Assembly (NCBI GenBank): GCA_031272805.1
Contig: JAISTC010000098.1
Location: 1-40,212, forward strand
Length of the DNA: 40,212 bases
Direction: 5' to 3'
DNA from: Propionibacteriaceae bacterium
Lineage (GTDB): Bacteria > Actinomycetota > Actinomycetes > Propionibacteriales > Propionibacteriaceae
The first letter of the stretch is position 1; each line of letters begins with the position of its first letter. The position numbers were made by a program, and so were the translations under genes. The notes under the pieces were generated by a model that was not told the origin of the DNA, did not search any database, and saw only the letters and a list, made by a program, of their open reading frames with translations. This document shows positions 1 to 22,196 of the stretch, in pieces.

Positions 1-1616
1 GCGTAGCCGACGCCCGCGCCGACGATGGCGGCCTCGGCCACGGGCGCGTTGAACAGCCGGGGGTAGCCGACGAGTTCCGTCAGCCCCCGGTAGACGGCGA
101 ACGGGCCGCCGGCGTCACGCGCGTCCTGGCCCCACGCCGCCAGCGTCGGGTCGAGCGAGAAGCGGTGGGCGACGGCCTCGAAGAGGCCGTCCCGGAGCTG
201 GTAGGCCTTGAGCTTGGAGACGGGCTGGTCCGCGTCGTCGCGGGCCTTGCGGACCTTGGCGCCGATGGCCTTGATGCGCGCGTTGTCGTTCAGCGGCTGG
301 GTCATCTCGGCCTTGCGCAGGACGTCGAACGTCTCGACGTGCTCGTGGGCGAACGTGACGGACTCGACGAACGCCGCGTCGACGCGCGGGCAGGCCTCCG
401 GGTCGGCCGCCCGGGCCAGGATGCGGCGGAGCCGGTCCTGGACCTTGCCGCGGACCTCGTCGATGGCGGCCTGGGTCGTGATGGCGTTGTGGATCATCAG
501 CTCGCCGTAGGCGCCGATCGGATCAACGGCCTCCCACGCGGCCACCTCCTCGGGCGTCCGGTAGGCGCCGGAGTCGGTCGCCTGGTGGCCGGAGTAGCGG
601 TAGGTCACGATGTCGAGGAGGACCGGGCCCTCGCCCGACTCGAGCAGTTCCCGCTTGCGGCGCAGCGCGTTGGCGACCGCCAGCGGGTTGAAGCCGTCGA
701 CGCGCTCGGCGTGCATGGCCTCGGGGCCGACGCCCGCGCCGACGCGCGCCAGGACGTCGAAGCCCGTCGTCTCCCCCGCGGTCTGCGAGCTCATCGCGTA
801 GAAGTTGTCGAACAGCGTGACGAGCAGGGGCGGGTTGCCGCCCGCCGACGCCGGCCAGAGGGTCCGGTACTGGTCCATCGACGCCATCCCGATGGCCTCC
901 CACACCGGCCCGCAGGACAGGGCCGCGTCGCCCAGGTTGGCCACGACGATGCCGGGCTGGTGGTTGATCCGCTTGTAGAGGGCGGCGCCGAGCGCGAGCG
1001 GCGCGGCGGCGCCGACCGTGGCGTTGTTGGGCATGGAGCCGAACGGCGGGAAGTGGGCGCGCAGCGACCCGGCCAGGCCGTGGTTGAAGCCCGCGCGGCG
1101 GCCGAAGCACTCGGCCAGCAGGCCGAACAGGACGCAGTTCTCGGCCAGTTCCTCGGGGGTCTCGTAGCCGAGGGCCTCGCCGGGGGCGGCCAGCTCGCCG
1201 TCGGCGAAGCCCTGGAGGACCTCCGCCGCCTTGGCCTGGCCGAGGACGCGGAGGGCGGAGAAGCTCTTGGCGATGACCTCGCCGTGGGAGCGGTGGGAGC
1301 CGAAGACGAGGTCGTCGGGGCCCAGCTCGAGGGCCTGGCCGACGACGGCGGCCTCCTGGCCGAGGCAGAGGTGTTCGGGGCCGGGGTGGTCGTAGGCCAC
1401 GCCCTGCCACTCGCCCGTGGTCGTGACGGCCTCGAGCATCGACTCGAACTCCCGGATGACGATCATGTCGTAGAGGACGCCGAACAGGCCCTCGGCCCCG
1501 TACATCGCCATCTCCGTGCCGAGGTCGAGCTGGTAGGCGTTGACGGGGATCTCGGCGAAGCGCACGACGGAGCGCGCCCGCACCTCCGCCGGGTCGACCG
1601 GCAACAACTTGGTCAT
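1..1616 (-). CDS. Fused alpha/beta 2-oxoacid dehydrogenase E1 component, 3' end beyond window
   Basis: A thiamine-diphosphate enzyme expected to decarboxylate a 2-oxoacid. 538 codons are visible and the gene runs off the left edge. Residues ~40-400 match E1-alpha (GQEAAVVG, FGSHRSHGE, a GDA...DNFYAMS version of the ThDP/Mg motif near 229-271, and YRYSGHQATD with the loop His). From ~470 an E1-beta domain begins (YQLRDGLFEAV, GGPFAVYRGL, NAPVAEAAIVG), keeping the Glu equivalent to the ThDP-activating beta-Glu59 of human PDH. Departures from the classical pattern are GDA for GDG, DN for NN and GQD where E1-beta usually has GE[DE]. I recall GDA as usual in the fused family, so it need not be a defect. 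The ATG is preceded by GGGAGGAG and lies 13 nt after the E3-like gene, as the third gene of the operon. Substrate unknown; branched-chain or pyruvate-like is a guess. Confidence 0.85.
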   Translation of the reverse strand, partial: MTKLLPVDPAEVRARSVVRFAEIPVNAYQLDLGTEMAMYGAEGLFGVLYDMIVIREFESMLEAVTTTGEWQGVAYDHPGPEHLCLGQEAAVVGQALELGPDDLVFGSHRSHGEVIAKSFSALRVLGQAKAAEVLQGFADGELAAPGEALGYETPEELAENCVLFGLLAECFGRRAGFNHGLAGSLRAHFPPFGSMPNNATVGAAAPLALGAALYKRINHQPGIVVANLGDAALSCGPVWEAIGMASMDQYRTLWPASAGGNPPLLVTLFDNFYAMSSQTAGETTGFDVLARVGAGVGPEAMHAERVDGFNPLAVANALRRKRELLESGEGPVLLDIVTYRYSGHQATDSGAYRTPEEVAAWEAVDPIGAYGELMIHNAITTQAAIDEVRGKVQDRLRRILARAADPEACPRVDAAFVESVTFAHEHVETFDVLRKAEMTQPLNDNARIKAIGAKVRKARDDADQPVSKLKAYQLRDGLFEAVAHRFSLDPTLAAWGQDARDAGGPFAVYRGLTELVGYPRLFNAPVAEAAIVGAGVGY

Positions 1617-1629
1617 GGCAATCTCCTCC

Positions 1630-3000
1630 CTACTGCTCCCGGATCGCCCAACAGGCCTCGCGGATGCCCTCCGCGACCGTCGGGTGGGGGAACACGATTT
1701 GGCGGACGTCGGCGACGGTCAGCTCGAGTTCGAGGAGACCGGCCGCGCCCCAGATGATCTCGGTGGCGTGGGGGCCGAACAGGTGGAGGCCGCGCAGTTG
1801 GCCGGTGGCGCGCTCGGCCACGACCTTGACGGCGCCCGTGGCGGCGAGGCCGGACTCGGCGACGCAGCGTTCGGACAGGACGAGGGGGGCGGTCGCGGTC
1901 ACGACCTCCAGGCCTTGGGCTTCGGCGTCACGTTCGGTCAGGCCGACGCCGGCGGCTTCCGGGAAGCCGAACATCGTGTAGGGCACGGCCTCCCAGCGCA
2001 TCACCTGGCCCTTGGCCGCCTGATCGGGGTCGAGGATGAGCGCCGCGGCGATCTCGCCGCTGCGGATGGCCGTGTTGGCGCCGAGCCCGCGGCCCGTCAC
2101 GTCGCCGACCGCCCACACGCCCGGCAGGCTCGTGCGCAGCCGGTCGTCGACCGTGACGCCGCGCGGCGTGATGTGGAGGCCGGACGTCTCGGCCCCCCAG
2201 CCCTCGAAGCGGGGGCGGCGGCCGAGCGACAGGAGGACGACGTCGGACGTGATGGCCTCGGCGCCGCCGGCGGCCGTCGTGTAGTAGACCGTGCCGCCGT
2301 CGAGGCGCTCCAGGCGGCAGCCCAGGCGGAAGCGGACGGGCCGCATGGCCGGGCGGAGCTTCTGGGCGATGTCCGCGTCCATGAACGGGGCGATCTCGCC
2401 GAGGGTCTCCAACAGCGTCACGCTCGACCCGAGCGCCGAGAACAGGCTGGCGCACTCGAGGCCGATGGCGTCGCCGCCGAGGATCGTCAGGCGGTCGGGC
2501 ACGCGCGCGCTGGCCAGCAGGGCGGCGGCGTCGACCACGCAGGGGTTGTGGGCCACCCCGCGCAGGGGCGGCAGGTTGGGCACGGAGCCCGTGGCGATGA
2601 CGACGTGGTCCGCGGTCAGGCGGCGGCCGCCGACCTCGACGACTCCGGGGGCGAGGAAGCGGCCCGCGGCGGGCACGACCTCGACCTTGAGCCTTTTCAG
2701 GAGCGCGGCCAGGCCGCCGACGAGGGTCTGGACGGCGGCGTCCTTCTTGGCCTGGAGGGCGGCCCAGTCGAGGTTGAGGCCGGTCACGGTGATGCCCTCG
2801 GCGGGCGCGGCGCGCAGGTCGCGGATGGTCTGGGCGGCGTGAAGGAGGCTCTGGGCGGGGACGGGGCCGAGGTTGACGGACGTGCCGCCGAGGCGGCCGG
2901 GTTCGGCCACGAGGACCCGCCGGCCGGCCTGGCCGAGGCGCTGGGCGACCGTGGAGCCGCCGGGCCCACCGCCCAACACGATGACGTCGTAGTCCGCCAC
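1630..3000 (-). CDS. Dihydrolipoamide-dehydrogenase-like flavoprotein lacking both redox cysteines
   Basis: A 456-residue protein with the whole pyridine nucleotide-disulfide oxidoreductase fold: FAD-binding GGGPGG (10-15), the ATGS segment, an NAD-domain segment GGDAIGLE, an AVGD FAD motif, and a C-terminal dimerisation domain ending HPTVAE with the catalytic-type His439/Glu444 pair. The redox-active C-x4-C is gone: residues 41 and 46 are Ser (codon 2878-2880) and Pro (2863-2865) in GGTSVNLGPVPAQ. The usual Lys after it is Gln50, and the third Gly of the NAD-site GxGxxG is Asp. It therefore cannot reoxidise dihydrolipoamide by the classical route. It may be a diaphorase, NADH oxidase or structural partner (inference). 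GTG start with GGGAGGG upstream, 12 nt after the E2-like gene. The frame is intact. Confidence 0.85.
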   Translation of the reverse strand: MADYDVIVLGGGPGGSTVAQRLGQAGRRVLVAEPGRLGGTSVNLGPVPAQSLLHAAQTIRDLRAAPAEGITVTGLNLDWAALQAKKDAAVQTLVGGLAALLKRLKVEVVPAAGRFLAPGVVEVGGRRLTADHVVIATGSVPNLPPLRGVAHNPCVVDAAALLASARVPDRLTILGGDAIGLECASLFSALGSSVTLLETLGEIAPFMDADIAQKLRPAMRPVRFRLGCRLERLDGGTVYYTTAAGGAEAITSDVVLLSLGRRPRFEGWGAETSGLHITPRGVTVDDRLRTSLPGVWAVGDVTGRGLGANTAIRSGEIAAALILDPDQAAKGQVMRWEAVPYTMFGFPEAAGVGLTERDAEAQGLEVVTATAPLVLSERCVAESGLAATGAVKVVAERATGQLRGLHLFGPHATEIIWGAAGLLELELTVADVRQIVFPHPTVAEGIREACWAIREQ

Positions 3001-3012
3001 AGGCCCTCCCGC

Positions 3013-4212
3013 CTACTCCGCCGGGGTTTCGGCCGGGGCGCCGCGGTCCGCCAGGAACCGGACGAGGTCGGTCAGCGCGTCGTTCAACTCCCCCGCGGCC
3101 GCCAGCCCGCGGTCCAGGCCGAGGCTGAGCGCCATGCCCGGGCCGACCGTGACGCCGGGGTGGCCGATCTCCGCCAGGTGCCGCCGCACCGCGTCCAGGT
3201 CGTCCTGCGCGCCGACCAGGAACAGCGTCACGGGCGGGGCCGGGATCGGCTCGTCCGGGTGGTCCGGCTGGCTGGGCTCGTCGGGCGTGACCGGGGAGGC
3301 CGGGGAGATCGTGACCGTGCCGGTCGGGGAAGACGGGCTGTCGGGGGTCGGGGCGGGAGGGTCTTCCGGGGCGGCCACGGTGTCAGGCCCCGTGGCCTCG
3401 AGCTCCGTGGCCTCGTCCTCGATGGCGCGGCTGGGGACCGCCGGGGACTCAGGGGAGAGGGGTGTGCCGGGCGCGGCCAGGCGGGCCTGGCCGGAGACCG
3501 CGGCCAGGACGTCGCGCTCGATGACGCGCCCGCGCGGGCCCGTCCCGACCAGGTCGTCGATCGTGATGCCGTACACCGCGGCCAACTCGCGGGCGCGGGG
3601 GCTGGCGGCCTTCGGGCCCGGTTCGGCGGGCTCGGGGGGAGAAGCAGCCTCTGGCGGGTCGGCCACGATGTGTGGCTCCGCGGCAGGTTCTGCTGGGGCG
3701 GCCACGATGGTTGGCTCCGCGGCAGCTTCTGCTGGGTCGGCCACGGCGTCAGGCCCCGTGGCTGTCGCAAGCTCCGTAGCCACGGTGCCCGACCCCGTGA
3801 CCTCGGCCGACGTGACCTCCTTGGCCTCGGCGGCGCCGAAGATGGCCGCGACGCGCGCGGACAGACGGCCGGTGTCCTCGGACACGGCCGGCTCCGGGTC
3901 TTTGGCCGGCGCGCTGGCGATGGCGGGGACGGGCAGGCCGAAGCGGGCGAACATCATGCGGACGTCGTCGCCCGGCTGGCCGACGATGAGCAGCGGGGCC
4001 TTGACGGGAATCTCGCTCCCGGCCTCGGCCAGGCGCGCGAACACGGTCCCGGCCGTCCGGGCCGCGACCGACAACGCCGTGGCCTGGTCCGTCTCGACAT
4101 CGCACACGGGCGTGCCGGCCGCGACCGTGTCCCCGACGTCGACGCGCCAGGCCACGAGGAGGCAGGTCTCGACGCCAGCGCCCACTTTGGGCATCACGAC
4201 GACCTCGGCCAT
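3013..4212 (-). CDS. E2-like scaffold: lipoyl-fold domain without lipoyl lysine, no acyltransferase domain
   Basis: 399 residues; the ATG at 4212 follows GGGAGGAG. Residues 1-80 are a biotinyl/lipoyl-fold domain (MAEVVVMPKVG...VETDQA). The residue normally lipoylated, the Lys of the ETDKA hairpin, is Gln43 (codon 4084-4086, CAG). The domain also has Cys17 and Cys37. An Ala/Pro/Glu linker carries tandem 13-residue repeats, then a peripheral-subunit-binding-like domain (~200-240, RARELAAVYG...TGPRGRVIERDV), a second Pro-rich linker, and a ~75-residue C-terminal domain (PVTLFLVGAQDDL onward) that I do not recognise. The ~230-residue catalytic acyltransferase domain with HxxxDG is absent. First gene of a tight operon with the E3-like and E1 genes. 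It could tether the partners; how it could carry an acyl group without lipoate is unexplained. Confidence 0.8.
   Translation of the reverse strand: MAEVVVMPKVGAGVETCLLVAWRVDVGDTVAAGTPVCDVETDQATALSVAARTAGTVFARLAEAGSEIPVKAPLLIVGQPGDDVRMMFARFGLPVPAIASAPAKDPEPAVSEDTGRLSARVAAIFGAAEAKEVTSAEVTGSGTVATELATATGPDAVADPAEAAAEPTIVAAPAEPAAEPHIVADPPEAASPPEPAEPGPKAASPRARELAAVYGITIDDLVGTGPRGRVIERDVLAAVSGQARLAAPGTPLSPESPAVPSRAIEDEATELEATGPDTVAAPEDPPAPTPDSPSSPTGTVTISPASPVTPDEPSQPDHPDEPIPAPPVTLFLVGAQDDLDAVRRHLAEIGHPGVTVGPGMALSLGLDRGLAAAGELNDALTDLVRFLADRGAPAETPAE
3656..3735 (-). repeat. Two tandem 39-nt (13-residue) repeats in the E2-like linker
   Basis: Two near-identical copies, offset by 39 nt (GGCCACGATG begins at 3661 and again at 3700), encode PAEAAAEPTIVAA and PAEPAAEPHIVAD. 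A further ~45-nt pair of related segments lies at 3368-3412 and 3734-3781, one in each linker. The period is a multiple of three, so the frame is kept. Such repeats lengthen a flexible swinging-arm linker. Confidence 0.75.
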
Positions 4213-21396: not shown

Positions 21397-21415
21397 TGCG
21401 CTACGCTGTAGCGCA
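21397..21415 (+). promoter_or_regulatory. Palindromic operator overlapping the leaderless toxin-antitoxin promoter
   Basis: TGCGCTACGCTGTAGCGCA is a perfect inverted repeat (8-bp arms, 3-nt centre). Its last base is the A of the ATG at 21415. The -10 element TACGCT (21402-21407) lies inside it, 7 nt before the ATG, and there is no Shine-Dalgarno. A ribbon-helix-helix dimer bound here would block both polymerase and start site, the usual autoregulation of type II modules. Confidence 0.65.
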
Positions 21416-21837
21416 TGAGCACATATCCGCTGTCGATCCGCTTCGACGCGTCGGTCATCGAACGGCTCCGCCGGTGGGCCCGCAGCCACACCACGACCCC
21501 GTCTGGGCTCGTCCAGGACTTGGTTGACGAGGGCTTGCGAATGCGGGAGACCCCGGGGATCATCTTCAAGCCCGGGCCCAGCGGACGCCGCGCCAGCCTG
21601 GCGGGCGGCCCGGATGTCTGGGAAATCATGGCGGCCGTCAAGGAGACGCCTGCGGAGGCCGGGGACAAGGTGGCGTCGGTCGCCGAGGAGATGGGGCTGC
21701 CCGCCAGCTTGGTCGACCTCGCGCTGACCTACTACTCCCGTTATCCCGCGGAAATCGACCGTGAGATCGCCGACAACGAGTTGGCCGCCGAAGCCGCGTT
21801 CAAGGCCTGGCAAGTCCGGCAAGCGGCGCTGTCGTGA
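21415..21837 (+). CDS. Ribbon-helix-helix antitoxin-like protein
   Basis: 140 residues. The N-terminus STYPLSIRFDASVIERLRRWARSHTTTPSGLVQDLVDEGLRMRE reads as a ribbon-helix-helix DNA-binding unit (beta strand plus two helices). The rest (GPDVWEIMAAVKETP..., MGLPASLVDLALTYYSRYPAEID) resembles the DUF433-type helical domain often paired with DUF5615 toxins. The stop overlaps the next gene's GTG by 4 nt, so the pair is co-translated. It probably neutralises the following protein and represses its own palindromic promoter. Function is inferred from fold and context. Confidence 0.7.
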   Translation: MSTYPLSIRFDASVIERLRRWARSHTTTPSGLVQDLVDEGLRMRETPGIIFKPGPSGRRASLAGGPDVWEIMAAVKETPAEAGDKVASVAEEMGLPASLVDLALTYYSRYPAEIDREIADNELAAEAAFKAWQVRQAALS

Positions 21838-22196
21838 CCGAACGCCTGCTGCTGGACGAGCACTACTCGCCCGCCATCGCCCAGGCGTTGCGTGACCGGG
21901 GCTTCGATGTCGCGGCGGTGAACGGCGACGCGGAACTCATGGCCAAGTCCGATGCCGACCTTGTCTCCGTGGCGGTCGCCCAGGACCGCCGGATCGTGAC
22001 GGAGAACGTCAAGGACTTCCTCCCCCTGGCCGACACGGCCTACCTGGAGGGGCGACCGGCGCCCCGCCTCCTGTTGGTCGCGGCGCATCGCTTCCCCCGT
22101 GGCCGGGACAGGGTCGGCCACCTCGTGACGGCCCTCGACGGTTGGCTCCGCCAACCGGAGACGCCCGCCAGGCCCGACCAAGATTGGTTGGCCTAG
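21834..22196 (+). CDS. DUF5615 family PIN-like protein, probable toxin
   Basis: 120 residues, typical for the family. The N-terminus LLLDEHYSPAIAQALRDRGFDVAAV carries the conserved LLDE, followed by SDADLVSVAVAQDRRIVTENVKDF with the Asp/Asn positions of Mut7-C/PIN-like nucleases. DUF5615 proteins are predicted RNases of type II toxin-antitoxin pairs; few have been tested. The GTG start lies in a GTGA overlap with the antitoxin. The TAG stop shares the tetramer CTAG with the convergent dipeptidase stop, so no intergenic terminator exists. Confidence 0.72.
   Translation: MTERLLLDEHYSPAIAQALRDRGFDVAAVNGDAELMAKSDADLVSVAVAQDRRIVTENVKDFLPLADTAYLEGRPAPRLLLVAAHRFPRGRDRVGHLVTALDGWLRQPETPARPDQDWLA

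Follow-up and report, generated by a model that had tools for sequence, protein, structure and literature searches.

Can all three components of a 2-oxoacid dehydrogenase complex lose conserved catalytic groups and still be kept, and what would then keep them? The question is raised by an operon at one end of a 40,212-nucleotide stretch of DNA from a Propionibacteriaceae bacterium (GenBank assembly GCA_031272805.1, contig JAISTC010000098.1, positions 1 to 40,212), here called the window, which is contig C45 of a 2.96-Mb metagenome-assembled genome (MAG) that is 88.8% complete (G000; other genomes, contigs and loci are likewise cited by G, C and L numbers). The operon runs from 4212 to 1 on the minus strand, on which all its features given below lie, and encodes, in this order, an E2-like protein, an E3-like flavoprotein and an E1, with gaps of 12 and 13 bases and a GGAGG-type ribosome site 5' of each gene; the three adjacent genes and their ribosome sites had been reported in a preliminary description of the sequence. 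Sequence comparisons suggest that it is probably an old pseudo-2-oxoacid dehydrogenase complex, kept by selection beside a working canonical copy. That the whole three-component complex turned non-catalytic and took on a new selected function in one clade, for example in regulating its canonical sister, has in our view slightly less than an even chance, and the more specific idea that it regulates or titrates the canonical complex is a tentative guess by analogy; the selection-kept pseudo-complex is better supported than the regulator step.

Losses in the three components

The E2-like gene (3013..4212; 399 aa) encodes a lipoyl-like domain, Pro/Ala-rich linkers and a subunit-binding domain, and no acyltransferase domain. 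In the lipoyl-like domain (residues 5-76, 3985..4200; Pfam Biotin_lipoyl), the lipoyl Lys is replaced by Gln43 (codon CAG, 4084..4086), which follows ETD in the hairpin ETDQATALS; this hairpin is matched letter for letter in the relative G008 and is one residue longer than in the canonical genomes G006 and G017. Among 41 distinct E2s (a hand count from 51 rows minus 10 loci repeating a gene; 30 of the 51 rows are best search matches and not a random sample), the Lys is present in 39, and Gln occurs solely in the window and in G008 (contig C25). The peripheral subunit-binding domain (E3_binding, residues 204-237, 3502..3603; PF02817, E 1e-10) is well kept, with 85% identity to that of canonical G006 over 40 residues. 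No Pfam match to the acyltransferase domain PF00198 was found at the window locus or at G008:C25, so that the preliminary description was right on both the Gln and the missing domain. A candidate remnant of the C-terminal end of the acyltransferase domain, lacking the His of HxxxDG, lies at residues 353-389 (3046..3156); it is a weak BLAST match to the acyltransferase end of G006 (30% over 37 residues, E 0.35) and of G017 (E 1.4), with no comparable match in the G008 E2-like protein, and it hints that the domain was removed by deletion. In the lineage adjoining the altered clade, the E2 of G005 (contig C213, locus L109) carries the lipoyl hairpin EAGKSAMK vs ETDKSAME in relatives, with the Lys kept and the remainder beyond the contig end; it is a possible intermediate state.

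The E3-like gene (1630..3000; 456 aa, GTG start) encodes a full-length pyridine-nucleotide oxidoreductase whose top NCBIfam match is lipoamide dehydrogenase, at 343 bits (cut-off 409). For this protein and for E1, the catalytic roles of residues are those we presume from known families. Both redox Cys are kept in 17/17 canonical E3s scored, that is, those with an N-terminus (the G005 piece is unscorable). As described earlier, the window has Ser41 (TCC, 2878..2880) in place of the first, as does G008, and Pro46 (CCC, 2863..2865) in place of the second, where G008 retains Cys. The inventory of losses can now be extended: Gln50 stands where canonical E3s carry Lys, and Asp177 (2470..2472) stands in the NAD-binding GxGxxG motif, where G008 and all 17 canonical E3s scored have Gly; to these the E1 adds His186, replaced by Arg. 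The losses of Cys41, Lys50 and Trp341 are common to the window and G008, and those of Cys46, Gly177 and His309 are found in the window alone. G008 alone of the two lacks the HPT-motif His, which is weak evidence because an otherwise canonical E3, that of G004, also lacks it. The latter protein (locus L044) has the Cys pair and Pro for this His (FPPPTVSEG). The FAD-fold positions GGGPGG and Asp300 are retained in both altered E3s. Within the window protein, losses are enriched in active-site motifs (17/51 vs 9/77, p 0.004), the motif ranges having been chosen by the analyst.

The fused E1 alpha-beta gene (1..1616) does not bear out the earlier statement that all three genes are intact, since its reading frame is cut after residue 538, where the contig ends (base 1); both alpha and beta parts are recognised in the full-length G006 relative. 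A piece on contig C56, with metH next to it and 79% identity to the G008 E1 over 193 residues, is very likely, by sequence, the window E1 from residue ~608 onward, which leaves ~70 codons unseen; it ends ~19 residues before the E1 C-termini of relatives. All frames seen in the three genes are open. In the GGSMH motif, Arg186 (1059..1061) is found in the window, G008 and G010, and His in the other 19 E1s tabulated. E1 had been described as keeping most thiamine diphosphate (ThDP)-site residues; the window E1 retains the Mg-ThDP ligand positions, Asp230, Asn271, Tyr273, His111, His344 and Glu528, the last aligned with what we take to be the ThDP-activating Glu, it lacks His186, and its beta-domain His falls in the unseen gap. 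G010 retains Glu528 and the Mg-ThDP ligand positions; in G008, Pro replaces Glu528 and Leu replaces His111. Since Asp230, Asn271, Tyr273 and His344 of E1 and GGGPGG and Asp300 of E3 are common to the altered copies, cofactor binding is possible.

An inherited altered copy beside a canonical one

A search of 96 genomes with the E3-like protein found close relatives in the genus and family at 50-63% identity, and E1 relatives were matched in 16/19 genomes of the genus. Gene order in the loci read is again E2-E3-E1, except in G002, G003 and G007, which have no E3 gene, and in loci cut by a contig end. The altered operon of G008 lies on C25 and C29, which overlap by 119 bases, and G008 also has a canonical operon (C63). 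The window genome likewise has a second, canonical operon, divided between C106 and C107, which are identical over 119 bases at their ends; it has the lipoyl Lys (C106), HRVLDG (C107), both E3 Cys and a full E1.

The losses go together, as had been proposed, in that those of the lipoyl Lys, the acyltransferase domain, E3 Cys41, Lys50 and Trp341, and E1 His186 (the last also in G010) are common to the window and a second species, G008. Of the substitutions first proposed for a check of conservation across a clade, Gln43 and Ser41 recur in G008 and Pro46 does not. Close relatives that have both the Cys pair and the Lys, which the preliminary description would have taken as a sign of recent pseudogenisation, do exist in G006 and G017, but neither falls inside the altered group. 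The E1 tree unites the window, G008 and G010 (100/100), to which G005 and then G006+G017 are added, and this threefold nesting is recovered in the tree of the housekeeping protein CarB (96/94, 95/93, 99/96); because the two agree, the altered copy looks inherited. The E3 tree pairs the window with G008_C25 (100/99), and the G005 piece joins at 89/67. Further, metH lies 3' of E1 in G006, G017 and G005 and on the window's C56, and rpe-thrC lies 5' of the operon in the window, G014, G002, G003 and G007.

The second copies of G000 and G008 pair in the E1 tree (95/95), nested among sequences of other genera (100/98), and their upstream cluster is common to other genera. The E3 tree gives no such pairing: G008_C63 groups with Propionicimonas (93/84) and G000_C107 is unresolved. 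Horizontal transfer of the second copy is not claimed, given the missing E3 pairing and a midpoint root, which also makes an old duplication possible.

Constraint and rates

Between the window and G008, 41-43% of four-fold sites differ (CarB 39%), and protein identity is 68% for E1 and 63% for E3 (CarB 84%). With so large a divergence, a recent event is unlikely. Four-fold divergence in deeper pairs (G004-G001 and G004-G006) reaches 51-60%, so that the lower window-G008 value is not evidence of full saturation. In a five-taxon codon model, setting omega (dN/dS) to 1 on the window and G008 tips worsens the fit by 145 log units for E3 and by 211 for E1; these fits hit branch-length bounds, and solely the rejection of omega = 1 is used from them. 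A single omega over the nine-taxon E1 codon alignment is 0.035. Separate-branch omega fits were set aside as unstable (they gave an E3 stem omega of 20). A dN/dS of 1 on these tips is therefore rejected, a value near 1 having been named as a sign of recent pseudogenisation, and the earlier opinion that decay is the less likely course agrees with these results as far as recent decay is concerned, the proteins being still constrained and neutral tips rejected.

The same constraint is seen at positions invariant among canonical sequences. The E3s of the window and of G008 each retain 102/128 such columns, and the E1s retain 184/213 (window), 168/207 (G008) and 144/158 (G010); canonical sequences left out singly retain 93-100% (E3) and 95-100% (E1). 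Rates, taken as branch lengths relative to CarB on fixed topologies, are high on the stem of the altered clade (4.2x for E1 and 5.1x for E3, the E3 branch also spanning time before the G005 split). On the altered E1 tips they are 1.7 (window), 1.7 (G008) and 1.1 (G010), with canonical tips at 0.5-1.7, and on the altered E3 tips 3.5 (window) and 2.8 (G008), with canonical tips at 1.6-3.1. A fast stem followed by renewed constraint is the pattern expected of a new role, without naming which role. In simple neutral simulations at 0.4 changes/site, the frame stayed open in 7/200 (E2), 1/200 (E3) and 0/200 (E1) runs. The operon thus lacks the disabled frames and the neutral rate of a pseudogene, the frames seen being open and omega = 1 rejected, and it has what defines a pseudoenzyme, conserved catalytic residues being absent and the remaining sequence constrained.

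Genomic context and lipoate supply

An alcohol-dehydrogenase-like gene (PF08240), which the window copy lacks, stands close by and upstream of the operon at 15 distinct loci. A fusion of aldolase and short-chain dehydrogenase (PF00596, PF00106) is usually present in the same neighbourhood, as is a PHP-domain gene (PF02811) in those that were read, so that the substrate of the parent complex may be a 2-oxoacid of the adjoining pathway. At L044, L048, L115, L116, L117, L118 and L127, the fusion and the alcohol-dehydrogenase-like gene stand 5' of a canonical E2-E3-E1 set, in most with the PHP-domain gene. None of the losses described was seen in the 15 linked loci as far as these were inspected (a hand count, with gaps: G013, L114, shows the E2 start only; G024, L043, has masked E2 letters; the E2s of L126-L128 and the E3 of L127 were not read per residue; and G004, L044, lacks the HPT His). 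Among eight loci with upstream sequence and no alcohol-dehydrogenase-like gene, five are altered (window, G008:C25, G002, G003 and G007) and three are not (G014, G018 and G008:C63). L038, L052, L053, L107, L109, L110 and L206/L207, which are downstream halves or have short upstream sequence, were left out of this count.

An aceE-type pyruvate dehydrogenase scores over the cut-off in 12/19 genomes of the genus, including the window's. At E <= 0.001, lipA was matched in 3/19, none over the cut-off of 310 (G017 303, G006 300 and G004 23 bits), and BPL/LplA/LipB-type genes were matched in 18/19; genomes of the genus without a near-cut-off lipA probably scavenge lipoate. Lipoate shortage was considered as the cause of the losses, since lipA tracks canonical copies within the clade, and is at most a contributor because other canonical copies sit in lipA-less genomes.

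Within the window, the operon is preceded by genes for ribulose-phosphate epimerase, threonine synthase and a DUF885 protein. Apart from the operon, two small overlapping ORFs at 21415-22196 (+), the first without a Pfam match and the second a DUF5615 protein, are arranged in what strikes us as the manner of a toxin-antitoxin pair.

A proposed course of events and its alternatives

The following course of events would account for these observations. A once-canonical, inherited E2-E3-E1 operon would have lost its lipoate chemistry in the common ancestor of the window genome and G008, a second, pathway-linked operon taking over catalysis and the old subunits being retained, we infer, for binding. 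The E2-like tether, devoid of the core-forming domain and of the usual lipoylation site, could still hold the E1-like and E3-like proteins through its subunit-binding domain, and would serve, without catalysis, as a scaffold or a regulator; the simplest way would be for it to bind or titrate subunits of the canonical complex. A regulatory role is proposed because of the analogy with E3BP and with dead paralogues such as prozyme, discussed below.

Several observations weigh against selective retention. The full set of losses is known from two genomes, both fragmented MAGs, G010 contributing an E1 piece only, and metH does not adjoin E1 in G008 (16 kb read) or in G010. All three altered E1s have His344 and the Mg-ThDP ligand positions, and those of G008 and G010 have the beta-domain His as well. 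The motif enrichment of E3 losses is absent in G008 (10/51 vs 16/77, p 1.0) and for the losses common to both species reaches p 0.11. The window E3 tip (3.5) exceeds the highest canonical tip (3.1); the inner branch of G008+G010 (4.7x, E1) and the branch above the G005 split (3.2x) are also fast, so that the fast phase extends over several branches, and values of 4-8x also occur on some short inner branches of canonical copies. For the altered branches, omega estimates ran into their bounds and cannot be used, and sequence constraint names no function. The main reason for caution is the degeneration in G002, G003 and G007. Their operons (L111, L112 and L113, respectively) are of the form E2-E1 with no E3 gene between; the E1 beta-domain His is lost in all three and Glu528 in G003, the E2 HxxxDG motif is missing in G003 and reads HAVVDE in G002, and the E1 rates relative to CarB are 4.1 (G002), 13.8 (G003) and 3.3 (G007). 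By sequence, this looks like separate degeneration of the same complex, and such fast and altered E1s mean that function has often been lost at this locus within the genus.

These E3-less operons with a rapidly changing E1 speak for the main rival, slow decay, in which the operon, redundant beside a canonical copy, erodes by missense changes with its frames still open. It would fit the presence of that copy in both genomes, the loss of different active-site residues in each lineage and the probable early end of the window E1 by ~19 residues. We consider it unlikely, though a serious contender: synonymous divergence is high, yet the frames seen are open and the proteins 63-68% identical, neutral simulations seldom leave such frames open, omega = 1 is rejected on the tips, and the three altered E1 tip rates lie inside the canonical range. 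Lower still stands the lipoate-free catalysis of the preliminary description, in which E1 would decarboxylate a 2-oxoacid and hand electrons or an aldehyde to the E3-like flavoprotein on the E2-like tether. The ThDP-site residues kept by the window E1, the GGGPGG and Asp300 of both E3s and the conserved subunit-binding domain speak for such a relay, which we nevertheless hold to be improbable, as it is weakened by the loss of Glu528 in the G008 E1 and by further losses that differ between the copies (Leu111 in the same E1 and Asp177 in the window E3, with the HPT His missing from the G008 E3, as from canonical G004); Arg186, found in all three altered E1s, also counts against it. Retention of Glu528 and of the Mg-ThDP ligand positions in G010 and the window could also point to an E1 active alone, as a non-oxidative decarboxylase or carboligase with E2 and E3 as passengers; this is more improbable again, Glu528 being lost in G008 and E3 being constrained too, at near-canonical rates. 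As for an assembly or binning artefact, the fragmented MAG and the position of the E1 gene at a contig end would allow one, but the same derived states occur in another genome, G008, the DUF885, threonine synthase, ribulose-phosphate epimerase and carbamoyl-phosphate synthase genes share the contig with the operon, and the metH neighbour on C56 is as in relatives, so that we give an artefact hardly any weight.

Comparison with known systems

Pseudoenzymes are a known kind, and the present case would be unusual in touching all three components of a complex: E2 and E3 have lost key groups and E1 conserved positions, with the operon still in place, its subunit-binding domain conserved and most invariant positions unchanged. 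If the retained pseudo-complex is real, the pseudoenzyme is a whole complex instead of a single protein, and it offers a natural test of uses of E1-E2-E3 assembly beyond 2-oxoacid oxidation. No three-part pseudo 2-oxoacid dehydrogenase complex was found in titles and abstract starts among the open-access PMC papers listed, which is weak evidence of absence.

Among the nearest systems are the canonical Propionibacteriaceae operons with a fused E1 (C106/C107; G006 and G017; Propionicimonas, L126), which have the same E2-E3-E1 order, the fused E1 and the lipoyl-like and subunit-binding domains, and which differ in that the lipoyl Lys, the acyltransferase domain and the E3 Cys pair are present there. 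Among solved dihydrolipoamide dehydrogenases, 2eq6 is the best match to the E3-like protein, over its full length (E 1.1e-74), and the two structures aligned retain the Cys pair, unlike the window protein. In the eukaryotic pyruvate dehydrogenase complex, E3BP (protein X) is an inactive E2 paralogue with a peripheral subunit-binding domain, according to PMC9974300. The window E2-like protein resembles it in both respects, and the same genome also encodes an active-type E2 (C106/C107). E3BP keeps its lipoylated domain and core domain, whereas the window protein lacks both the lipoyl Lys and the core domain, and here E1 and E3 are altered as well. MRPS36, a small adaptor recruiting E3 in the eukaryotic 2-oxoglutarate dehydrogenase complex (OGDHC; PMC9974300), differs in that it works in an active complex and is not an E2 paralogue. 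For the trypanosomatid S-adenosylmethionine decarboxylase (AdoMetDC) prozyme and deoxyhypusine synthase, PMC5201418 and PMC3663545 describe a dead paralogue retained alongside a partner that it activates; those are single eukaryotic enzymes, compared with a three-part complex here.

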